A stretch of 41,616 nucleotides of DNA from Bacteroides sp. (GTDB lineage: Bacteria; Bacillota; Clostridia; Oscillospirales; Acutalibacteraceae), in NCBI GenBank assembly GCA_023665085.1, contig JAMPEQ010000016.1, positions 1 through 41,616 on the forward strand. Direction: 5' to 3'. The notes under the pieces are model-generated. The model had not been told where the DNA came from. It did no database searches and worked only from the letters and a program-made list of their open reading frames with translations. Position 1 is the stretch's first letter. Each line of letters starts with the position of its first letter. The translations under genes were made by a program, and so were the position numbers. This document shows, one piece after another, positions 374 through 12,072 of the stretch.

Positions 374-889
374 TTAATTGCTTTTTAGTGCTTCATATTT
401 TTCATAAGTGCTCTTTAATTTATCATATCCACTGACCGTATCACTACTAGATGTATCAATTCTTACAACATATTCTTTGTTTGATTTTGCTGATAAATAG
501 AAGTGATTTGAAATATCTGTGTAAACTGTTCCAAATTCCTTTTCTGTGTCTTCATTTGAATAAACTATATAGCATTTCCCGATTTCTATTAAGGAATCAT
601 CAAGTATAATATCTTGTGTATTTTCAGCATCTTTTATATATCCAATTAATTCTTCTGTTATTTCAAGTTCATTTTTTTCATTATATATGTTAAACAATAT
701 CTTTGAAATACCCATTTTTTCTGTCAATTCAGATACTGGTTTACTTGTTTGCTCTTCGCTCTTATTTGTCGAGGATTGAAGATTACTTGTTTGTGTATCA
801 GAGGTTTCAGAGTTGTTCTGAACACTGCAAGAGCAGAGAATTAAAAGGTTAAGAATTATACATAGAATAATAATTATACTTTTTTTCAT
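374..889 (-). CDS. Small secreted lipoprotein of unknown function
   Basis: The 171-residue product starts with a short basic hydrophobic signal and a lipobox ending at Cys21 (ILCSC), so it should be lipidated and held on the outer face of the membrane. Residues 22-55 are a Ser/Thr/Gln-rich linker. The rest is a small mixed alpha/beta domain with no motif I recognise. The ATG is preceded by AAGGAAATAG. It is the last gene of the minus-strand surface operon, 18 bp after the subtilase gene, and is followed by a terminator. An accessory or protective role for the neighbouring protease or RHS protein is possible, but nothing in the sequence shows it. Confidence 0.75.
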   Translation of the reverse strand: MKKSIIIILCIILNLLILCSCSVQNNSETSDTQTSNLQSSTNKSEEQTSKPVSELTEKMGISKILFNIYNEKNELEITEELIGYIKDAENTQDIILDDSLIEIGKCYIVYSNEDTEKEFGTVYTDISNHFYLSAKSNKEYVVRIDTSSSDTVSGYDKLKSTYEKYEALKSN

Positions 890-907: not shown

Positions 908-3900
908 TTAATCAACTTTCTTTTTTATAAGAATTATTACTATAAAAACAATTATACAAATGCAAAATACAACTATACTTTCGTTTTTACCCCCAGTATT
1001 TGGTGAAATTTTACTATTGTTTTTCTTTATACTTTGAGAAGATGTTGAGTTGTTTTGTGATTGTTTATTCGTTGTTGAATTATCCGTAGTACCAACTTCT
1101 GATGTTGTTTCATTAGCAGACGCCACAGGGTTTGTATTTTGCACTGTTGTTGATTCAGTAGTATTTTCAGTTGATGGTTTTGTTGGTTCTGTTACCTCTG
1201 TACTCGGCTCTGTCGGTTCTGTGGCTGGTTCTTCAGGCTCAGAATATAAAAGATTATGACTGACTGCACTATAGGCATCAAATGTTTTTACAACATTTCC
1301 ATCATTATCCTTATCTGTGCTTGTCATTACACAGTAATAGTAAGGGTAATATTCATAGTTTTCAGGTGAGAACACCTCACTATTTGCACCATCAAGAGCT
1401 ATTCCATTTTCAGTATCATTTGTATATGAGCCGTACCATTGATACTGTTTATTAAACCCATAGCAATCAAAAGAAAGCTGTTCATTAGAAAACCTGTCAT
1501 AAACAGGATATACATCTTTAACTATTGAATTATCTCTATCAAGCATAATGAAATCTGCACCAACTTCGTCTGCCCATTGAGCTGCATATGAAGCCTTGCT
1601 GCTACCATAAACAACATAATGTGTGTGTTCTTCAATAGATTTATATTTATTATTTTTATATCGTTCATAAGGATTGATGAGGTATTCCAAAGTAGACGGA
1701 AGTACAAGTATAAAATCCGTAGCATAATTATCATATGAATACCCATAAATATATCTGATATAATTTAATGAACCATCAGCATTAAAAACAATATTTTCCA
1801 AATAATTTGCAGGCAAGGAATCTATTTTCACTGCATTTGAAAGTTCAAATCTTTTTGCACCACAATTATAAAACATATCAGAATAGGCGTAATTGCTGTT
1901 TGTCGTATTATCCAAATTATTAAGAGTAACTGATTTTAAAAGTTGTGTATGAGAGAATACCTCTCTGCAGTCATTATTCCTATAATCATTTTTTATGTCA
2001 GCTTTACAAATATTGGCATTAGGAATATCAAGTAAAGATAAATGTTTGCAGTATGTGAAAGTACTCCAAGAGAATGTTTCTAAATTTTCGGCATAGAATT
2101 CTCTTATTGTGCAAGTCTTAACCCCATGAGAAAACACATTTGAATCCAAATCTTTCAAATTTGGTAAATTCATTCCATAAATATGTGAGCCATCAAATGC
2201 ACCTTCTGTTATTTTTATTACATTTGGAAAATCAACTTCTTTTAATTCATTTGTCATTTCAAAAGCAAAATCGTGAATAACAGATAGGTTTTTGCTTATA
2301 ATATATTGAATAAATGGGTTACCACTAAAAGCATATGAATAATAATGGTCAAAAGTCCCAAATTCATCGTTTTCAACAATATGCTCATTTTTGATGCCTA
2401 ATTCGGTGATCGTTTCCGGAAGAACAACGCCAATACAATTTATATTTGAAAAAACATATTGTCCTATATCTTCAACAGTTATTCCATTAATCGTTTCAGG
2501 TATTTTCAAATATTTAACATTTCCACTGTATGATGTAATAACACCCTCGTTATTAATAGTGAACATATCCTCATCATCTAAAGTTGCTGAATGAATTTGT
2601 TTTGAAGAGAATGCGCTTCTATAACCTGTTTTCTTATTAACGGCAATCGCTTTAATGGTGAAATAATCATCACTAAATTTGATAGGCTCTGTATATAATA
2701 TGCTGTCTCTAGGTGACGGATATTTTGAACCCATTGTATAATATATATCACAATTCTCATCTGATTTTAATTCTATAGTAACAGGACCTACATATACATT
2801 TTTATCAGTACCGTAATTTTTCCCTGAATTTATAACATTTATTTCGGGTGCCTTCTCCTCAAGCATATCAAATAATTTTAAAACATCAATAATTCCACTG
2901 CCAAAATATCCCGTTGAATATGGTGTATCGTGTTGTACTGTACTTCCAACCATCATTCTTTCCTTCTCTGCCATAGTCATATTATTATAGATAATATCTA
3001 ATAATGCATATACAGCAGATATGAAAGGCGCAGAAAATGATGTACCAGCACTTAACTTATATCCTCCGGTAAATTCCGCTACAGGAATATCTGTAGCAGG
3101 TGCTAATAATCTAACGGATTCACCATAATTAGTTTTTTGATATGGAATGTTATATGCGGTATTACCTCCTATACAATAAACATAATCTGAATTTTCAAAT
3201 CTCCAAGAACCATAATCCATATTTGTCGCATAATTTCCGGCAGCAACACAAATAAAACAATCTTCATCATAAAGGGACTTTAATGTGAATTGTAATATTT
3301 CATCATTTTTCTCGTCAAGGCCATTTATACCAAAACTACAATTAAATATTTTACAGCCATCAAGTTTGGCTTGTATAAATCCCTCAATTAAATATGATAA
3401 CGAAGTTATTCCACTGTTTGAAATAACTTTATATGTTGCAATTTTTACACAATTAGGCGTATTTGCTGCAATAACACTTGCAACCATTGTTCCGTGACCA
3501 TATGTATCATCTGATTCATCACCATCCGAAAACAAATTAAATCCTGTTTTTACAAGTCTATCGGTATTAATTTCTGTAAAATATTGATGATTATAATTTA
3601 TACCTGTATCAAGAACAGCAACCTTAATATCAAAAAAATCAGAATTATTTAATATATCTGCTTTTCTTGTGAGAAATTCTTTGATTCCTGTTGAATATGT
3701 GTACCAATTATCAGTTAAATCTTCAGCAGTGATTTTTTCATTTATTGCCGATTGATTATCTGACAAATCTACAGAAATAATTTCATCAACTGATACAGAA
3801 GAAACATATTTATCATTAAGATATTTATTGTATGCTTCTTCTGTATCTTTTTCATTTTCAAACTGAACAATATGATAATCTTCAAAACCATCAGCAACTG

Positions 3901-4240
3901 CAATTGCATCCTTATCATCAAATCTTTTGCTTTGCTTAACGATAAGTCGGCAGGTTTGAAAATCGAGTTCATTTTCTTCTAATGGTTTCTCATCATCTTC
4001 AAAAAGTGTTGGTTCCCATATTGTCGGGTCATCATTCTGTGAAATTATTTCAGGTGTTTCGGAGGAAACAACAAATTCTTTATCAGTATCATATGTACTC
4101 ACAATATCGGCTACTTCGTCAACAAAATTTTCAATATTTTTTGACTCAATATCATTAGCATATGCATAAAAGCCAACTACAACTGTCGAAAGTATTATTA
4201 TAATTGAAAGTATTATTGATAATATTTTCTTTATTTTCAT
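908..4240 (-). CDS. Cell-wall-anchored subtilisin-like protease (S8) with LRR region
   Basis: This 1110-residue protein is a secreted serine protease. A signal peptide covers about residues 1-28 and an acidic propeptide-like segment follows. The S8 domain spans about 200-460 and has the complete triad: Asp211 (VLDTG), His249 (GHGT) and Ser401 (GTSFSAP), with oxyanion Asn336 (AAGN). After it come a chitobiase-C-terminal-like beta domain (about 480-550), BspA-type LRR_5 units (about 560-870), an aromatic-rich beta segment and a Glu/Pro/Thr linker. The end has a sortase-type signal: SPNTGG, a hydrophobic helix and KKK. The motif departs from LPXTG at its first residues, and no sortase gene is present here. 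The ATG follows GGAGGAG. The gene lies 24 bp after the RHS gene, so processing of the RHS protein is a plausible but untested role. Confidence 0.88.
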   Translation of the reverse strand: MKIKKILSIILSIIIILSTVVVGFYAYANDIESKNIENFVDEVADIVSTYDTDKEFVVSSETPEIISQNDDPTIWEPTLFEDDEKPLEENELDFQTCRLIVKQSKRFDDKDAIAVADGFEDYHIVQFENEKDTEEAYNKYLNDKYVSSVSVDEIISVDLSDNQSAINEKITAEDLTDNWYTYSTGIKEFLTRKADILNNSDFFDIKVAVLDTGINYNHQYFTEINTDRLVKTGFNLFSDGDESDDTYGHGTMVASVIAANTPNCVKIATYKVISNSGITSLSYLIEGFIQAKLDGCKIFNCSFGINGLDEKNDEILQFTLKSLYDEDCFICVAAGNYATNMDYGSWRFENSDYVYCIGGNTAYNIPYQKTNYGESVRLLAPATDIPVAEFTGGYKLSAGTSFSAPFISAVYALLDIIYNNMTMAEKERMMVGSTVQHDTPYSTGYFGSGIIDVLKLFDMLEEKAPEINVINSGKNYGTDKNVYVGPVTIELKSDENCDIYYTMGSKYPSPRDSILYTEPIKFSDDYFTIKAIAVNKKTGYRSAFSSKQIHSATLDDEDMFTINNEGVITSYSGNVKYLKIPETINGITVEDIGQYVFSNINCIGVVLPETITELGIKNEHIVENDEFGTFDHYYSYAFSGNPFIQYIISKNLSVIHDFAFEMTNELKEVDFPNVIKITEGAFDGSHIYGMNLPNLKDLDSNVFSHGVKTCTIREFYAENLETFSWSTFTYCKHLSLLDIPNANICKADIKNDYRNNDCREVFSHTQLLKSVTLNNLDNTTNSNYAYSDMFYNCGAKRFELSNAVKIDSLPANYLENIVFNADGSLNYIRYIYGYSYDNYATDFILVLPSTLEYLINPYERYKNNKYKSIEEHTHYVVYGSSKASYAAQWADEVGADFIMLDRDNSIVKDVYPVYDRFSNEQLSFDCYGFNKQYQWYGSYTNDTENGIALDGANSEVFSPENYEYYPYYYCVMTSTDKDNDGNVVKTFDAYSAVSHNLLYSEPEEPATEPTEPSTEVTEPTKPSTENTTESTTVQNTNPVASANETTSEVGTTDNSTTNKQSQNNSTSSQSIKKNNSKISPNTGGKNESIVVFCICIIVFIVIILIKKKVD

Positions 4241-4264: not shown

Positions 4265-7200
4265 TTAAACTGTTATAAATATGCCACTACTCCAAGCATA
4301 GTTCTTTATTGATGGAGCAGCATTCCATATATTTATATAATTTTTTATAATGTAATCTTCTTCATTGTTTTTGACATAAATTGAACTATCAGAAGATACA
4401 TCATTTGTTAGCCATCCACGTCCCCAATTAGCATTAACTTTATTAATTGCATTTGGAGAATAATGACCTAATGCTCGAGCAAATAGATTTGTAGATATTC
4501 GCTTAATATCCATATTATACAGATTGCTTCCATATTGATAATTCCAACTACCGTTTTCCTTAATTATCTGTGATGCAAAAAGTGTACAAATTGGTCTTGA
4601 TAAAAATGCTTTGCTCATATCAACACTAAATCCGTTGTCAAACAAATTAAAATCATTATCAATTGTTGACCATGATGCATAAGCGTCATTATTATTTATC
4701 AAATTATTATTACAGAACAAATATGGATTTGAATCAAGTGGATTTGACGAAGCATGCATCATACCTGAGTAATCACCGTCAGTAGATATATTTCTCGCCC
4801 ATGTCGGTGAATAGCATTCACTTTTGGCATAATACATTCCGCTTTCATAATCATATAAATATCCTTTATATGTACACGGATTAAATAAAGCTGTTAGCAT
4901 ATACGAATTATATCCTAGTTTGTTTGGATCAGGAATATTATCTAGAGTTAACTGTCCCCATGAATCATAAGACATAGATACGCTTATAACACCCTCATCA
5001 TCTCCTGTAACCAGTAGGCCAATAACATTACCTTGTGAATCCTTAACATACTGATGCATGTACCCTGTAGGTGTAACATATCCTATTGGCGAACCTTCAG
5101 AGTCATAGATTATTTTCGAAAATGTTATCATGTTAATGTCAGAAGAATCTTCTTCCCTAAGATAATCATAGATATTACCTTTAAAAATAATACCTTCTAA
5201 TACACCATTTTCCCATACATAATCTTGCTCACTATGCAAACCGAAGACACCTTCATCGTTCTTTAAGTATTTCTTTTTCGCCGTTCTATATCCATTTTGA
5301 TCATATTCGTATGTGAAAATTTTAATTATTTCTCCATCATCATCTAACAAATCAAATTCTGTTAATAAATTACCACACCATTTCAGTTTAGCTCTTACTA
5401 GACCTTCATAATTATAACCAATATAGTTTAACGGATTTCCACAACCATCATATTCGATCTCTTCATCTACAATGGTCTCACTCACAATCTCATTATTATT
5501 TTTAACAACAGTTTTTTCGGCGTAACCTATCATCCTGTCCTTAAAAACGTGATCAAATGTATAAGTGTATTCATAGTATGCCTTTGAATCCATAAGCAGC
5601 AAAGAATTTTTGAATTTACTAAAGTCGAAACTTTCAAATTCATCTTCATCCATTGCTATGAGTTCATATACTGAAAAGTCAGGATCATCTGACATTTGAA
5701 AAATTGGAACTTCATTTAATATTCTTTTTGTACATAAGTTACCGCTCTTATCATAAACATATGTAGCATATTTATCATCAATTGGATTAGCTTCGCAAAC
5801 TAATTGATTTTGCTCGTCATACCCATAGTAATTTCCTAAAACATAATGTTCTTGTGTAATTGGACAAGAACATTTATTACAGCACTTCTCGCTTTCAGTA
5901 CAATATCCTTTGGCTTCATAATCGCAATTACAAGTACATTTATCATTTTGTTGACAATTAATACTTTCTTCAAATTTATAGTACTTAAATTGTAGATTTC
6001 CTCTTGAATCATATTTAAATACCATAGAAATAGCATCTTCAAGTACTTGTGAATTTTCAACCATTTCACTTATAGCAATTTGATATTCAGATAAAAGGGA
6101 GCTTGTTTGATTGTTTTCTGAATCAAGTGTCATATATGAATAATTCGATGTATAATTGAATGTGCCATTATTATTTGGTTGTGAACGATTTATAAAACTC
6201 CTGTCTATAGAATTTGACGTAATTCTTCCAAATGAATCCTTTTCAATAACTGATTCCATATTATAATCTATTTTCATAGAATCAATAATAATAAAGCTTT
6301 TGTCCATATTAAAGGACATAGTATCAGTTGTAGAGTTGTTAGATTTATTAGAAGAATATGTAGTTGTGGCAGTGTCAAAAGTACTATTGTCAATATTTCC
6401 TGTAGTTGTTAAATATGTTTCATTTTTAGAGAGTGAGCCTTCATTAGTTGAATATATTAAGCGTTCAACTTCATTAACATAATCATACAGTTCATATCCG
6501 TTCTCAGAATATACAATTTTAGTTTTGGATGTTGTATTTTCACCTGAAGTAAAATCTGTAACATTACAAATAACCGAACTCACTTCGCCATTATTATCAT
6601 AGGAATAGTCAAATTGTAACAGTGCAGGACTTTCAGAATTATTTGTATTATTATAGTAACTGATTGTATTAACTTTACCGTTATTGCTATAAGAATATGA
6701 TATTTCGCTACTATTTCCATAAACAATTTTGTTTATATTTGAATTGGAATCATATTTATATTGCTGTAATTTTTGATTAATGATATCATTTCCTTTTTGC
6801 CCAGTTACAGAAATACTGTCAATATTTCCATCAGCAAAATAATTAAATGAATATGTAGTTCCATTATTTGTTACAGATGTGATTCTATTTGATGAATCAT
6901 AGCTATACAATGAACTTAATGAAGTGGTAGATGTGCTGTTACCTATATCATTTATTAATGAAATTGTAGCTGTTACACTTTTTAATAAATGATTTGCATA
7001 GTATGAATACTCAGTTGGATTTTTTATTTTTTCTGAAAGATCAATAGTGTTTCCAGATTGCACTAGTTTATTGGTTGTAGAATCATATTTATAATATGTT
7101 GTTATTCCATTTTCATTAGTTGTTGATGTTAAATTATTATTTTCATCATATTGATATGACTGAATTAAGGAATTATTATCATAGGATATTGAATTTTGGA

Positions 7201-9742
7201 TTATTCTTCCATATTCATCATATTCTGAATTATATACTTTTGATGTTTTAATGCCAAATGGATCTGCCGATGATTCTTTGGCAATGAATATTTCAGCATT
7301 GTTTATTGTTAATGAACCACAATCTCCTTTAGTTTGAATATAATATTCAATACCAATGCAGTTATCCTTAAGATTTATAGCACTCATTATTGTTTGTGAT
7401 AAACCATCAAGACTAGTATCAAAACTTAATTCAACTGTCTCAGAATATTCATCTTGATTTTCATCTAAATAATATACAATTATTTCTACTTTACAATAGT
7501 GTTCATTAGACTCATTTGGATAATTTTCTTTGGCAATACCCTCAATGCCAAATACAACAGTAGTATTTTTCACAAATTTTTCATTTTCAATTCCCTGAAC
7601 AATATTAACTGCATTACTTTTAGGTGTCAGTGTAATTGAATTATCTTCGTATGAAAAATAATTCATATTACTTTCGTACCATTCATTGTTTTCATCTTCA
7701 AAAGGATTTATTGAAAAATCTCCATTGCTTAGTAAATTTTCGTTTTCACCAGGGAATGCATAAGAAAATATTTTTCCTTCTGTATCATAAGATATGCACG
7801 TAGTATTCTTATATTTATCAATGTACGTAATTAAATTATAATTATGATTATATGAGTACTTTTCTACTAAATTCTTCTCATCAGTAAAAGTTCTGTAATA
7901 AGTTTTATCGGATCCAATTAATAATGAGTTCAAAACTGTACTTTTTTCGATTGATGAATAATGTGAATATGAAACCAAATAGTTATTTGAATTATTCTCC
8001 GACTTATCTTTATATGTAAATTCAACAATTGAACCATCTTCACATTCAATAATTTGTAATCTTCCACCTTTATTAAATTTGTAAGTTACAACATCTCCAT
8101 CAACAAATGTTTCTGTGTTTATTATCATTTTTGATGAAAAATCATACTTGGTATCAAAGTTAATTTCAAGTTGTTTCCCTCCAATGCAAATCGGCTCATT
8201 ATTATTATTGAAAATAGAAATATTACTAACATAATCATATTCATTAATATCCCACGGTAATGTATATGAATCATATGAAAAATAATAGATATTTCCATTA
8301 CCATCGACTATATTATCAATTCCAGCACTAGCATATTCAATAGAAATACTATTGTTATTTTTTGAAATTGAGGATATTCTACCGCTTGAATCAAACCTAT
8401 ATATATAATCATCGTTAGAAACATAACATTGAGTATAGTTTGTATTTTTGCCATTTGTATTGGCAGCCCTTTCCGTTATCCATAAAGTAGCATATACAGA
8501 AGCATTATCAGTGATTTGTTCCCACATTTGATAACCGTTTTTAGTTTCACCATTATTATATCTAAATTGAATTGATGTTCCATCAAGCATTGTCCATGTA
8601 AATATATTTCCATTTAGTTCGGCAGAATATCCATAGTTCCACATACCGCCAATATTTTCAGTAGAATGTACACTTAAATTTGACGATAAAATATTTCTAA
8701 TTATTTCAACTGGTAATAAAGTTGAATCAACGCCTATAATAGATTGAGTTAAGGACATTGAATTAGTAATATCATTAATAGATATTATTCCAGCTTTACC
8801 TAAATCTTCTGTATGATATGTGAAATATGAATTGCTATTTTCAGCATCTATATAATTAATTGAAATTACAGGCTCTTCAAATGTAGCTGAAAAAAGGGTA
8901 GTTGCTGGTTTCAATATAATTGATATGCCATGATTATTATCTGATTCAACTGTTTCTCTTTCCCATTTCGAAAAAGCATTTGTAATATTCAAATCATAAG
9001 TGCCTGTATGTGTAAGTTTTAAGGAATCAATAAGTTCAACATTTTTACTACCATCATAAATATCCACACCTTCACTTTCCCAGTTAGATGTTTCTTCCCA
9101 TGCAGTAAGAGTAGCTGAACTCTTTGAAATAACAGTTGTAAATTTTAATGTAGCATTAATCACTAATTTATTATTAGAAGCATATTTGTTAATATAGTCA
9201 GGTTTTAAGAATAATGTTGCAGTACCAGAGCGACTAGGAATACTAATCTTTTTTTCTATGTTATTAACAGTTGCATTAATTGCATTTAATGTTATATAAT
9301 CTTTTGTTATTGAACTAGTATCGTTGGATACTGTCGATGGAGAATTCATAAAAACCTGATAACAAATTTCATTAATCTGTTGTTCTGCTTCGTCGGTAGA
9401 TTTTGGTGGTATATCTAATTCAGCATTAACGCTTGTCCATTCATTATTGTTATCTAAATAATGAACAGGATATGCACAAGTTATACAATAATAACTGCCA
9501 TCATCTAAAAGATAAGTTTTTGAATATTGATCACGCCTTTCAGTAGCTTCAGCAATTATACTTTTACTTTGCTGAGTTGATTCTATATTATCGCAAATCA
9601 TCTTATCTATGTCCTTTTGCGACAATTGATTAAAAGTCATTTTTGTATTGGCAAAAACAGTTAAGGGAAAAAGCTGAATTACCATAACAAATATCAAGAA
9701 TGTAGCTGAAAATTTAAGCCACATATTTCTTTTAACTTCCAT
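4265..9742 (-). CDS. Giant secreted RHS/YD-repeat protein
   Basis: The product has 1825 residues. A signal peptide (about 1-32, ending VFANT) is followed by a helical region, then a DNRLRE-type adhesive domain (about 145-300). A long array of YD/RHS repeats (YDSxGN- and YKYDxxxN-like units) runs from about 380 to 1600, and an RHS-associated core lies at about 1610-1692, recognisable from YKGYLYDYESGMYYAKS and a degenerate NPYLFCNNNLINNND. Such proteins form a hollow beta-cocoon, and in polymorphic toxins the segment after the core is the variable effector. Here the tail is about 133 residues and matches no toxin fold I know. A Cys-rich insert lies at about 1262-1297. The ATG has AGGAGG upstream. 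No small immunity-type gene follows directly; the next gene is the subtilase. A structural or adhesive role is as likely as a toxic one. Confidence 0.85.
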   Translation of the reverse strand: MEVKRNMWLKFSATFLIFVMVIQLFPLTVFANTKMTFNQLSQKDIDKMICDNIESTQQSKSIIAEATERRDQYSKTYLLDDGSYYCITCAYPVHYLDNNNEWTSVNAELDIPPKSTDEAEQQINEICYQVFMNSPSTVSNDTSSITKDYITLNAINATVNNIEKKISIPSRSGTATLFLKPDYINKYASNNKLVINATLKFTTVISKSSATLTAWEETSNWESEGVDIYDGSKNVELIDSLKLTHTGTYDLNITNAFSKWERETVESDNNHGISIILKPATTLFSATFEEPVISINYIDAENSNSYFTYHTEDLGKAGIISINDITNSMSLTQSIIGVDSTLLPVEIIRNILSSNLSVHSTENIGGMWNYGYSAELNGNIFTWTMLDGTSIQFRYNNGETKNGYQMWEQITDNASVYATLWITERAANTNGKNTNYTQCYVSNDDYIYRFDSSGRISSISKNNNSISIEYASAGIDNIVDGNGNIYYFSYDSYTLPWDINEYDYVSNISIFNNNNEPICIGGKQLEINFDTKYDFSSKMIINTETFVDGDVVTYKFNKGGRLQIIECEDGSIVEFTYKDKSENNSNNYLVSYSHYSSIEKSTVLNSLLIGSDKTYYRTFTDEKNLVEKYSYNHNYNLITYIDKYKNTTCISYDTEGKIFSYAFPGENENLLSNGDFSINPFEDENNEWYESNMNYFSYEDNSITLTPKSNAVNIVQGIENEKFVKNTTVVFGIEGIAKENYPNESNEHYCKVEIIVYYLDENQDEYSETVELSFDTSLDGLSQTIMSAINLKDNCIGIEYYIQTKGDCGSLTINNAEIFIAKESSADPFGIKTSKVYNSEYDEYGRIIQNSISYDNNSLIQSYQYDENNNLTSTTNENGITTYYKYDSTTNKLVQSGNTIDLSEKIKNPTEYSYYANHLLKSVTATISLINDIGNSTSTTSLSSLYSYDSSNRITSVTNNGTTYSFNYFADGNIDSISVTGQKGNDIINQKLQQYKYDSNSNINKIVYGNSSEISYSYSNNGKVNTISYYNNTNNSESPALLQFDYSYDNNGEVSSVICNVTDFTSGENTTSKTKIVYSENGYELYDYVNEVERLIYSTNEGSLSKNETYLTTTGNIDNSTFDTATTTYSSNKSNNSTTDTMSFNMDKSFIIIDSMKIDYNMESVIEKDSFGRITSNSIDRSFINRSQPNNNGTFNYTSNYSYMTLDSENNQTSSLLSEYQIAISEMVENSQVLEDAISMVFKYDSRGNLQFKYYKFEESINCQQNDKCTCNCDYEAKGYCTESEKCCNKCSCPITQEHYVLGNYYGYDEQNQLVCEANPIDDKYATYVYDKSGNLCTKRILNEVPIFQMSDDPDFSVYELIAMDEDEFESFDFSKFKNSLLLMDSKAYYEYTYTFDHVFKDRMIGYAEKTVVKNNNEIVSETIVDEEIEYDGCGNPLNYIGYNYEGLVRAKLKWCGNLLTEFDLLDDDGEIIKIFTYEYDQNGYRTAKKKYLKNDEGVFGLHSEQDYVWENGVLEGIIFKGNIYDYLREEDSSDINMITFSKIIYDSEGSPIGYVTPTGYMHQYVKDSQGNVIGLLVTGDDEGVISVSMSYDSWGQLTLDNIPDPNKLGYNSYMLTALFNPCTYKGYLYDYESGMYYAKSECYSPTWARNISTDGDYSGMMHASSNPLDSNPYLFCNNNLINNNDAYASWSTIDNDFNLFDNGFSVDMSKAFLSRPICTLFASQIIKENGSWNYQYGSNLYNMDIKRISTNLFARALGHYSPNAINKVNANWGRGWLTNDVSSDSSIYVKNNEEDYIIKNYINIWNAAPSIKNYAWSSGIFITV

Positions 9743-9782
9743 ATAAAATTAACCTCCTTATCACTTATTAATCAATTAAGTT

Positions 9783-10193
9783 TTAACTATATGTTTTTTC
9801 AACATTTTTAGTGATCTTATCATCACTTCCGCCAGTACCCGAAATAGTAAATACTACGTGAGCACGATATGTGCCCTTGCTTGATAACTGTACAGAATGG
9901 CTTTTTGAAAAGCTTGTTAATGTTGAAGTATCTGTCCAATTTCCGCTATCAACGGTTATCCATATAAGTCCAACCTTTTTTTGCACTTTAGTTACAATTT
10001 CTGCTTTTTTTGTTGTACCCGATTTTCCTACATAACTGTAATATACAGTTGCTTTTCCGCTGCTTGATATTGAAAATGTAACATCGGTAGTATTAACATT
10101 ATTAGAATAAGGTTGAATACTGCTGGCATAAGCAGTAATTGTTGCTGAAAAAAGTGTAACAATACAAAGACAACTGGCAATAAATTTCTTCAT
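9783..10193 (-). CDS. Small secreted beta-rich protein, first gene of ECF-controlled operon
   Basis: The product is 136 residues with a clear signal peptide (cleavage near residue 23, after ITAYA). The mature part begins SIQPYSNN and is a Ser/Thr/Lys-rich series of alternating hydrophobic strands, which suggests a single beta-sandwich. It resembles small exported proteins common in gut Clostridia, but I cannot name a family or function. The ATG is preceded by a strong GAAAGGAGGG site. The gene lies directly downstream of the promoter at 10233-10265, which copies the sigma gene's own promoter, and 40 bp upstream of the RHS gene. It is therefore probably the most highly expressed product of the operon. 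Confidence 0.75.
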   Translation of the reverse strand: MKKFIASCLCIVTLFSATITAYASSIQPYSNNVNTTDVTFSISSSGKATVYYSYVGKSGTTKKAEIVTKVQKKVGLIWITVDSGNWTDTSTLTSFSKSHSVQLSSKGTYRAHVVFTISGTGGSDDKITKNVEKTYS

Positions 10194-10232
10194 AAAAAAT
10201 CCCTCCTTTCAAACTGTTATTTGCCCTCATAA

Positions 10233-10265
10233 TATACAACAGTTTAAAAAGAGGTTTATGTTACA
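10233..10265 (-). promoter_or_regulatory. Predicted ECF-sigma promoter for the secreted-protein operon
   Basis: On the minus strand TGTAAC (10265-10260) is followed after 19 bp by GTTGTATA (10240-10233). The flanks TTTTTGTAACATAAA and TTTTTAAACTGTTGTATA closely match the element in front of the sigma gene at 11506-11538, with the same 19-bp spacing. The -35-like TGTAAC resembles the AAC-containing -35 elements of ECF sigma factors. It sits just after the anti-sigma stop codon and about 40 bp before the next ATG. The ECF assignment is inference from the duplicated motif and gene context. Confidence 0.7.
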
Positions 10266-10272
10266 AAAATAT

Positions 10273-10944
10273 TTAGTTTTTTTCAGAAATGTTTTTGGAC
10301 AAAGTAATAATATCATTACGTAGATTATTTGATACATTTAATGTAAACCAATAATTACCATCTGTCCATCTCATAAATACTCCCGATTTATCTTCTACGT
10401 AATAAGCTGTATAACCATTTATTAACAATTCTTTGTAATTATGTTCATTATCTATTGTAAAATTCGTATCTATAATATTTTGCGAAAATGTTATTTCATC
10501 ACCATTATTATTTATCCAAGTCGTTAAAATACCTAATTCGTATTTTTGATATTCTTTTATTTCAAAACCATCGGGCAAATTAGTCAGTGTATATTCTGTT
10601 TCTATCTTATCAACGGGCGGTGTTGACTCTTCACTTAATGTTATTTCATTAAATTGTGGAAATATCTTTTTAACGAACTCTATAAATGGTGCTCTTGTTG
10701 CTGATACACTCATTAAACCTGTAAAAGTTACTATAATTGCAATTATTGCTGCCAACAATCCTTTTCTGATATGTCTTCTTGTTGAAAGTTTTATATGATT
10801 ATTCTTTTTGATAAGCTTGTTCATTGACTTTTCAAATTTTTCTGAAAAATCCCATTCAATTTCATCTTCACTTTTCAACTTTGAATTATCTATCCTTTCT
10901 GCTTCCAAAAAGGCTTTTATAAATTGTTCTTTACTATTTTCCAA
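10273..10944 (-). CDS. DUF4367-type membrane anti-sigma protein
   Basis: The 223-residue protein has an acidic and basic cytoplasmic N-terminus (1-60), one membrane segment (about 62-82, LLAAIIAIIVTFTGLMS) and an extracytoplasmic domain at about 110-220 with the layout of DUF4367 (TLTNLPDGFE start, then alternating strands). Proteins of this kind are encoded next to ECF sigma factors in Clostridia and are thought to hold the sigma factor at the membrane until an outside signal releases it. The start codon is TTG, one base after the sigma stop codon and preceded by GAGGGAT, so translation is probably coupled to the sigma gene. The signal is unknown. Confidence 0.82.
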   Translation of the reverse strand: MENSKEQFIKAFLEAERIDNSKLKSEDEIEWDFSEKFEKSMNKLIKKNNHIKLSTRRHIRKGLLAAIIAIIVTFTGLMSVSATRAPFIEFVKKIFPQFNEITLSEESTPPVDKIETEYTLTNLPDGFEIKEYQKYELGILTTWINNNGDEITFSQNIIDTNFTIDNEHNYKELLINGYTAYYVEDKSGVFMRWTDGNYWFTLNVSNNLRNDIITLSKNISEKN

Positions 10945-10945
10945 A

Positions 10946-11491
10946 TTAATCCCTCAAATCTTTTTCCAATATTTCAAGTAATTTCTTCTTTCCTCTGATA
11001 AGTTGCTGCTGAACTGCAGAATTCTTTTTGCTCAGCAAATCTGCAATATCCTTGATTTTCATTTCCTTAACAAAATGATAAAACATAACATCTCTGTATG
11101 TATCGTTAAGGCTTCTGATTGCAGTTACTATTTCCTCATAACTCTCTGTTAAACTTAATTTCTCAAAAAATTGTTCATCCGTCATATTTTCAACATCATC
11201 AAGCTTAATCAATTCATTCCTTCTTTCATTTTTGTTAAGAAGGTTTATTGCATTATTTTTAGTTGCCTTTATCACATATGATAAGGTTTTATTTGATTTT
11301 GGATCATCAATAGATTTCATATTGCGTGCAATCTTTATAAAGGTATCATGCACCACATCTTCTGCATCATCCTTGTTGTGAAGAACAGAATCAGCAGTTA
11401 ACACCATTCTTTTTCTGTATGTGTGATATATTATTTCAAATTTTGCTCGGTCATCCTCATCATCAATGAATGACATATATAATGCTAACAT
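10946..11491 (-). CDS. ECF-type RNA polymerase sigma factor
   Basis: Sigma-70 region 2 covers about residues 14-80 (DAEDVVHDTFIKIARN) and region 4 about 110-175 (LNDTYRDVMFYHFVKEMKIKDIADLL, then a helix with QQQLIRGKKKL). Only regions 2 and 4 are present, as in ECF factors. I place the start at ATG 11491 (MLALYMSF), preceded by AGGAGAACTT. An upstream in-frame start at 11515 would overlap the promoter-like element at 11506-11538. The product is 181 residues. It is followed immediately by its presumed DUF4367 anti-sigma partner. The matching promoter before the secreted operon implies that it drives both itself and that operon. Confidence 0.9.
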   Translation of the reverse strand: MLALYMSFIDDEDDRAKFEIIYHTYRKRMVLTADSVLHNKDDAEDVVHDTFIKIARNMKSIDDPKSNKTLSYVIKATKNNAINLLNKNERRNELIKLDDVENMTDEQFFEKLSLTESYEEIVTAIRSLNDTYRDVMFYHFVKEMKIKDIADLLSKKNSAVQQQLIRGKKKLLEILEKDLRD

Positions 11492-11505
11492 AAGTTCTCC
11501 TACTC

Positions 11506-11538
11506 TATACAACACTTTAAAATTTAATTTATGTTACA
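11506..11538 (-). promoter_or_regulatory. Predicted autoregulated ECF promoter of the sigma/anti-sigma operon
   Basis: The minus strand reads TGTAAC (11538-11533), 19 bp, then GTTGTATA (11513-11506). It is the twin of the element at 10233-10265, including TTTTTGTAACATAAA on the left and TTTTAAA just before the -10 side. The transcript would start within about 10-15 bases of the ATG at 11491, giving a very short leader that just holds the AGGAG site. Confidence 0.68.
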
Positions 11539-11672
11539 AAAACTTTTATAATTTTATTTAATACTTTATTTTAAAACTTGTCAATAGAATTTGACTAAAT
11601 GCAGAAAAATAAAGCATAAATGCAGAAATTCACACTTTTACAGGATTATTCTAATGATATAAGAATAATAAA

Positions 11673-11693
11673 AAGGCAGGAAAATCCTGCCTT
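11673..11693 (-). terminator. Terminator after tnpV-like gene
   Basis: AAGGCAGGA pairs with TCCTGCCTT across a short A-rich loop. On the minus strand the stem ends in CCTTTTTATTATT. It starts 8 bp after the stop codon of the TnpV-like gene. Confidence 0.8.
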
Positions 11694-11700
11694 AAAATGA

Positions 11701-12072
11701 TCAACACTTATAAATTATATCATTATATATAATTTCTCTTGCTTGATTAGAAATATTATTCATCATCTGCACCCATAACATTTGATTATTTGCTTTGAGT
11801 TGTTCTGTAATGCCTTGACCTTCAGCAAGCTGTTTGACAAGCAAATCATATTGTTCTTTCGCTCTAATATCAACTTTGTGCAGATATGAATTAAGTTTAT
11901 CACTTGTGAGTAAATTATAATAAATAACTCTATGATGTTTTTTAAAATACGCCTTATGCATTTGTCCCCAAATACCTATCTCATAATTTGTATCAGTTGA
12001 TACTAATGCAGGAACTTTAATATCTCCAACTTCAATATAATTTCCGTTTAATTCTTCATATAATGATTTCAT
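11701..12072 (-). CDS. tnpV: TnpV-family transposon protein (remnant)
   Basis: The 123-residue product has the TnpV pattern seen in Tn4451/Tn4453-like elements of Clostridia: an N-terminal MKSLYEELNGNY, a central IGIWGQMHKAYFKKHHRV block, NLLTSDKLNSYL, and a C-terminal AEGQGITEQLKANNQMLWVQMMNNI block ending in an acidic aromatic helix. Length is normal for the family. No large serine recombinase, other transposon gene or clear element ends are nearby, so it is a solitary leftover or an independently kept gene. Its molecular function is not well established. It marks a boundary between the ECF locus and the D,D-carboxypeptidase gene and suggests past mobile-element activity. Confidence 0.85.
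   Translation of the reverse strand: MKSLYEELNGNYIEVGDIKVPALVSTDTNYEIGIWGQMHKAYFKKHHRVIYYNLLTSDKLNSYLHKVDIRAKEQYDLLVKQLAEGQGITEQLKANNQMLWVQMMNNISNQAREIIYNDIIYKC

Follow-up and report, generated by a model that had tools for sequence, protein, structure and literature searches.

Putative twin ECF promoters of a sigma/anti-sigma cassette in Clostridia, the second of which may double as a translation lock on a small secreted protein

When the same promoter-like element stands before an ECF sigma factor gene and again before a secreted-protein gene further down the same strand, does the sigma factor govern its own cassette or a wider regulon, and does the second element act as a promoter only? 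The stretch of DNA analysed here (hereafter the window) is the entire contig C7, 41,616 bases, of a 2.34 Mb genome (2,344,000 bases, 32 contigs). On its minus strand an ECF sigma factor gene is followed by genes for a DUF4367 protein, a secreted protein, an Rhs/YD-repeat protein, a subtilase/BspA protein and a lipoprotein-like protein, in this order, with 79 bases between the DUF4367 and secreted-protein genes and then 40, 24, and 18 bases down the run:

10946..11491, minus strand: ECF sigma factor gene (Pfam Sigma70_r2 and Sigma70_r4_2; TIGR02937)
10273..10944, minus strand: DUF4367 protein, presumed membrane anti-sigma factor, directly 3' of the sigma gene (PF14285, E = 2.5e-11; hydrophobic segment by eye)
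9783..10193, minus strand: small secreted protein of 136 aa, predicted to be a single beta-sandwich domain (start resembling a signal peptide, by eye; AlphaFold)
4265..9742, minus strand: Rhs/YD-repeat protein, 1825 aa (PF05593, TIGR01643)
908..4240, minus strand: subtilase (S8) with BspA-type leucine-rich repeats (PF00082, PF13306)
374..889, minus strand: small lipoprotein-like gene at the end of the run (NF041193, E = 0.00083, 19.4 bits against a cut-off of 75)

At E ≤ 0.001 the 189-aa sigma ORF matched only PF04542 and PF08281 in Pfam, i.e., sigma regions 2 and 4 and no region 3, which places it among the ECF factors. The true start of the gene is most likely ATG 11491, which is preceded by GGAG (11500-11497) and corresponds to the residue at which the relatives start, and not the GTG 11515 of the mechanical ORF, with which the -10 of the promoter described below would fall within the gene. 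The DUF4367 protein is presumed to be a membrane anti-sigma factor; no mention of DUF4367 was found in the literature searched. The genome contains three DUF4367 genes, and two further sigma/DUF4367 pairs lie on contigs C6 and C9. Among the downstream products, the Rhs protein scored above the cut-offs of PF05593 and TIGR01643 and below that of the Rhs core model TIGR03696. No Pfam family was found for the 136-aa secreted protein, for which AlphaFold (run with 9 sequences) predicted a seven-stranded sandwich (mean pLDDT 86.5, pTM 0.73); the modelled domain resembles those of Ig/FnIII type, which is a statement about its fold and not its function.

The region upstream of the two promoter-bearing genes contains the following elements:

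11506..11538, minus strand: promoter copy 1, before the sigma gene (-35 TGTAAC at 11538-11533; -10 TGTTGTATA at 11514-11506)
10233..10265, minus strand: promoter copy 2, before the secreted-protein gene (-35 TGTAAC at 10265-10260; -10 TGTTGTATA at 10241-10233; predicted start about 10229)
11579..11584, minus strand: TTGACA, a possible weak housekeeping promoter upstream of promoter copy 1 (by eye)
11673..11693, minus strand: intrinsic-terminator-like site just past the upstream TnpV gene

The first-pass annotation had proposed the two copies as promoters of an autoregulated sigma factor devoted to a surface-protein regulon. Both were found exactly as described, with TTTTTGTAACATAAA, TGTAAC-N19-GTTGTATA and TGTTGTATA in common, and the claim that the window holds no third copy was confirmed, as only these two sites match the short pattern without a mismatch (at ≤ 3 mismatches, 18 matches vs. 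a shuffled mean of 6.6 and a largest shuffled count of 13). The genome scan that had been suggested with the short pattern recovered both sites together with one additional exact match, on contig C29, and three sites with one mismatch; each of these four additional sites falls within a stop-to-stop frame of 561–1000 codons. The short pattern alone says little, because at ≤ 2 mismatches it is no commoner in the genome than its reversed control (52 vs. 50). The extended pattern TTTGTAACATAAA-N13-TGTTRTATA occurs in exactly two places in the 2,344,000 bases, both in this cassette; allowing 3 mismatches adds a single site, and the reversed control has no match. Transcription had been predicted to start 6–9 bp after each element; at the sigma element, such a start would land inside the sigma gene's own Shine-Dalgarno sequence (SD). 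The usual ECF geometry would place the start of the sigma promoter near 11501-11502. Sequence similar to the TTGACA at 11584-11579 was seen in the loci L146, L022, L028, and L030; promoter prediction did not call this site, and a strong housekeeping promoter before the sigma gene was dropped from consideration.

A contig scan with the secreted protein found eight relatives, three of which are the loci L022, L044, and L051; those relatives that carry a name are MAGs under the labels Clostridia, Ruminococcaceae, and Oscillospiraceae, a lineage to which the window therefore probably belongs. A TGTnnn/TGTTnnnA-like pair stands before both the sigma gene and the secreted gene in 7/7 same-strand relatives (L146-L152, by eye), and the strict TGTAAC/TGTTGTATA form is present at both places only in L146 and L152. 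The proteins of these seven relatives share 48–72% (sigma) and 44–65% (DUF4367) identity with those of the window, and the secreted protein 65–74% in six and 56% in L152. In addition, the paralogous cassette on contig C6 has a distinct twin motif, TTCACAA-N14-GGTATATRG, whose two zero-mismatch sites in the genome are both in the C6 cassette (eight other sites at two mismatches, four for the reversed control); with such a private motif pair the cassettes look mutually insulated. Upstream of the window's sigma gene lies a TnpV-like gene (Pfam, 11701-12072), and the C6 cassette is preceded by a TnpV-similar frame (L032 11579-11965, by eye) and by similar intergenic sequence, hinting that the cassettes were copied or are moving together with TnpV.

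Taken together, the private extended motif, the paired motifs of the seven relatives and the C6 twin fit an ECF sigma factor that regulates itself and serves only the secreted-protein operon of its cassette. This part of the first-pass proposal holds at the level of sequence, and the regulon seems to be confined to the cassette, with no sign of dispersed surface genes. Autoregulation, judged by pattern matches, is not general in the wider family, where a loose promoter pattern precedes 17/71 secreted genes (shuffled mean 1.3) and 4/55 sigma genes (shuffled mean 1.3, largest 6), and a strict one 8/71 and 2/55, respectively (shuffled mean 0.1 each). Two further aspects, both absent from the first-pass annotation, are the breadth of the cassette family and an SD-hiding hairpin in the second promoter.

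With weak and partial matches counted, the secreted-protein profile matched 89/394 genomes of the order (E ≤ 0.001), a close-clade profile 26/398 genomes of the family, and the single window protein as query 4/80 genomes of the genus; the presence of the protein is therefore patchy. For the comparison of loci, eight duplicates and loci with < 120 nt upstream were dropped, leaving 96 distinct loci with no identical leaders, some of them weak or partial secreted-protein matches. Sigma/DUF4367 genes adjoin the secreted-protein homologue in 85/96 loci, upstream on the same strand in 74 and beside it on the other strand in 11; for the remaining 11, no partner was detected within the available stretch of sequence. 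A pseudogene remnant, L023 (940-1172, G016), stands outside this set: its secreted gene is reduced to its start, most of the hairpin leader is retained, and the sigma and DUF4367 frames are still open. The cassette gene order also occurs on the Clostridioides phage HGP05 and in 5/5 Clostridioides plasmid stretches examined out of 20 plasmid records with a DUF4367 match, 19 of which are Clostridioides. On plasmids of this genus of ~12 kb, L160 (NZ_CP126073.1) among them, the sigma and DUF4367 genes are accompanied by one for a hypothetical secreted protein. In L154 (MT838251.1), the DUF4367-type gene is 49% identical to that of the window and the promoter motif after it is similar, but the small secreted gene is a different one, with a weak DUF2712 match below cut-off; an ABC-transporter ATPase gene lies further on. 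The cargo after the cassette varies. It is an RHS-repeat protein in the window, L146, L147, L151, and C6, where a PT-HINT domain is present as well; in L148 it is a dockerin protein with glycoside-hydrolase-like and peptidoglycan-binding parts, in L152 a repeat protein, and the cargo of L153 gave no family match.

The hairpin joins the second promoter to the start of the secreted gene:

10238..10254, minus strand: hairpin 5' arm CCTCTTTTTAAACTGTT, i.e., promoter spacer and beginning of the -10
10202..10218, minus strand: hairpin 3' arm AACAGTTTGAAAGGAGG, which holds the SD (10209-10202)

The spacer sequence CCTCTTTTTAAAC together with TGTT (10254-10238) is complementary to AACAGTTTGAAAGGAGG (10218-10202), SD included. 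Nine close-clade leaders, the L023 remnant among them, have predicted folding energies of -17 to -33 kcal/mol with the 5' arm, and of 0 to -4 kcal/mol when the same nine begin 7 nt past the -10; the sigma-gene copies of the element reach about -6 to -15 kcal/mol. Of six Clostridioides leaders, three fold strongly (-19 to -25 kcal/mol), L159 moderately (-14.5 kcal/mol), and L158 and L160 weakly (about -7 kcal/mol). Against dinucleotide shuffles, in leader sets that were not selected for pairing, the secreted-gene leaders gave p ≤ 0.01 in 15/71 and p ≤ 0.05 in 21/71 cases, and the sigma-gene leaders in 1/58 and 3/58, respectively. A run over the 133 genes of 16 cassette-bearing loci, i.e., all ATG-started genes with an SD meeting the rule in a set overlapping the loci where the hairpin was first noticed, gave 14 genes at p ≤ 0.05 and six at p ≤ 0.01, every one of the six being the secreted gene. 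When arms were swapped between the 96 loci, likewise without selection for pairing, the own pair was better at z < -3 in 18/96, so that the pairing persists although the sequence changes.

Details of the helix were inspected in 28 loci (a strong-pairing selection plus L023 and three Clostridioides loci, which biases the pairing percentages upward), where the SD bases are all paired in 26/28 and the helix columns contain several pair types. A promoter could be called in 23 of these 28 loci, with a spacing of 16–18 bp (15–19 allowed), the other five having no call, and in 23/23 the anti-SD lies wholly within the promoter spacer. With regard to a lock of the type known from phage T4, the SD is paired on long transcripts in the predicted structures, and transcripts started at the putative promoter would be without the 5' arm in 23/23 callable loci. 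A strong hairpin is absent from most of the family (p ≤ 0.02 in 17/74 same-strand loci), and in L149, a close relative, the hairpin is degraded (swap p = 0.30). Other structures were seen by eye as well. L055 has a strong inverted repeat across the -10, which stops short of the SD and so cannot be the same lock, and in L091, L097, and L100, whose leaders have no SD-hiding hairpin, the mRNA would begin with a small hairpin that may stabilise it.

Loci with the hairpin differ from the others in what separates the anti-sigma gene from the secreted gene. In 72 of the 74 same-strand loci (two gaps among the 72, of 810 and 1306 bases, are outliers), a terminator of ≤ -7 kcal/mol was found between these genes in 0/22 hairpin loci vs. 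16/50 others (Fisher p = 0.0016, with a hairpin-locus cut of z < -2.3 set after the values had been seen and with phylogenetically related loci); 34 of the 50 non-hairpin loci have neither hairpin nor terminator at this threshold. At -5 kcal/mol, terminators were present in 17/50 non-hairpin loci vs. 6.9 expected from shuffles and in 1/22 hairpin loci vs. 0.8, and the median gap is 93 bases in non-hairpin and 78.5 in hairpin loci, so the contrast is in part one of composition and gap length. The C6 cassette of the window genome is of the terminator type. A terminator could do the work of the hairpin if the role of the latter is to silence read-through. Opposite-strand loci were also considered as proof of a read-through function, an argument that was dropped, as the strong hairpin was found in 0/11 of them vs. 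17/74 same-strand loci, a difference that is not significant (p = 0.11).

We consider it probable that the window holds a self-contained ECF cassette with sigma-driven twin promoters, the second of which doubles as a translation lock. The sigma factor would transcribe its own sigma/anti-sigma operon from promoter copy 1 and drive the downstream secreted-protein operon from promoter copy 2, and the DUF4367 protein would keep it at the membrane until a signal releases it. The 18 bp spacer of the second promoter (16–18 bp in relatives) would act as the complement of the secreted gene's SD: an mRNA reading through from the sigma/anti-sigma genes would fold into the long hairpin and hide the SD, and an mRNA begun at the second promoter, between the arms, would be without the 5' arm and translatable. 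With a lock at this position, the small secreted protein would therefore be made only while the sigma factor itself is active. The lock would reach only the SD of the first gene; the Rhs gene has its own SD, and an effect on Rhs would require polarity. A more specific version, rather doubtful in our opinion, is that of a cassette widespread in Clostridia whose ECF promoter spacer is at the same time the anti-SD, a single piece of DNA thereby coupling the choice of promoter to translation, and whose lock insulates from read-through a secreted Ig-like ligand that frees the sigma factor from the DUF4367 anti-sigma factor; the secreted protein would then need insulation because leaky synthesis would fire the positive loop.

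The twin motifs stand independently of the hairpin, several relatives have the promoter without an SD-hiding hairpin, and the inverted repeat over the -10 of L055 misses the SD (by eye), all of which would fit a cassette with twin ECF promoters only, where the repeat is incidental or mRNA-stabilising and exerts no translational control. Such an arrangement is nevertheless improbable, as the arms covary, the SD bases are fully paired in 26/28 of the selected hairpins, and the 6/133 genes at p ≤ 0.01 are all the secreted gene.

The hairpin might also be a cis-acting RNA sensor (of temperature, a ligand or a protein) on an mRNA started upstream, the promoter-like blocks being its conserved loop, and SD-hiding hairpins are indeed a common sensor design. 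However, like blocks precede the close-clade sigma genes without an SD-hiding hairpin, the spacing of the elements fits ECF promoters, the hairpin sequence varies while its pairing is kept, and an Rfam search of 9700-11750 gave nothing at gathering score and two chance-level matches only, all of which makes a sensor very unlikely. We give hardly any credence to the idea that some other DNA-binding protein uses the twin elements as operators: a weak dyad symmetry can be seen by eye in TGTAACA and TGTTGTA, but the genome has two cassettes, each with a private motif pair by its own sigma gene, and the -35/-10 spacing of 16–18 bp in the 23 called loci (15–19 allowed) points to sigma promoters.

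If the translation lock is real, it suggests a design rule in which the promoter spacer, usually deemed nearly free, is selected to pair with a downstream SD, so that a gene would obey one sigma factor even inside a read-through operon. The analysis also brings out a three-gene cassette that is conserved on clostridial chromosomes, on plasmids, and on a phage, and that in several cases precedes the gene of an Rhs protein or another large secreted protein. Moreover, it points to a possible reason for the presence of a terminator in some of these operons and of an SD-hiding hairpin in others.

Autoregulated ECF pairs such as SigM and SigW of Bacillus combine a sigma factor of regions 2 and 4 only with an adjacent membrane anti-sigma factor and their own promoter. 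The window cassette is similar in its sigma regions, its adjacent putative membrane anti-sigma factor and its own putative promoter, and differs in a motif confined to the cassette, a small secreted protein as conserved partner, the predicted translation lock, and a DUF4367 protein without cysteine and hence without a zinc-binding cysteine motif. Hairpin protection from external promoters is a feature of IS10 (Tn10) and IS200. The predicted lock is akin to it in shielding from outside transcription, whereas the gene concerned here is not a transposase and has an internal promoter that goes with a sigma factor encoded alongside. According to PMC2965389, a terminator in front of the transposase gene keeps an IS that has landed in transcribed DNA from being expressed. 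The closest logic is that of phage T4 late genes (PMC2988022): upstream early and middle transcripts of I-TevI fold and sequester the ribosome binding site, and the late promoter is positioned so that its transcripts escape this structure, with like arrangements in I-TevII, I-TevIII, segB, and Aeh1 mobE and sequestration also in soc, e, and others. As in T4, the SD would be sequestered on a long mRNA and freed on a promoter-started one; in contrast to T4, an ECF-like promoter is involved, its spacer supplies the anti-SD, and the whole is housed in a bacterial sigma/anti-sigma cassette, some relatives of which have a terminator instead. The titles and abstract openings of the literature searched, a few of them on T4, contained no bacterial sigma-promoter case of an SD-hiding read-through hairpin. 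The logic of the lock is known from phage T4, and a chromosomal cassette in which the spacer of an ECF promoter is also the anti-SD looks new.
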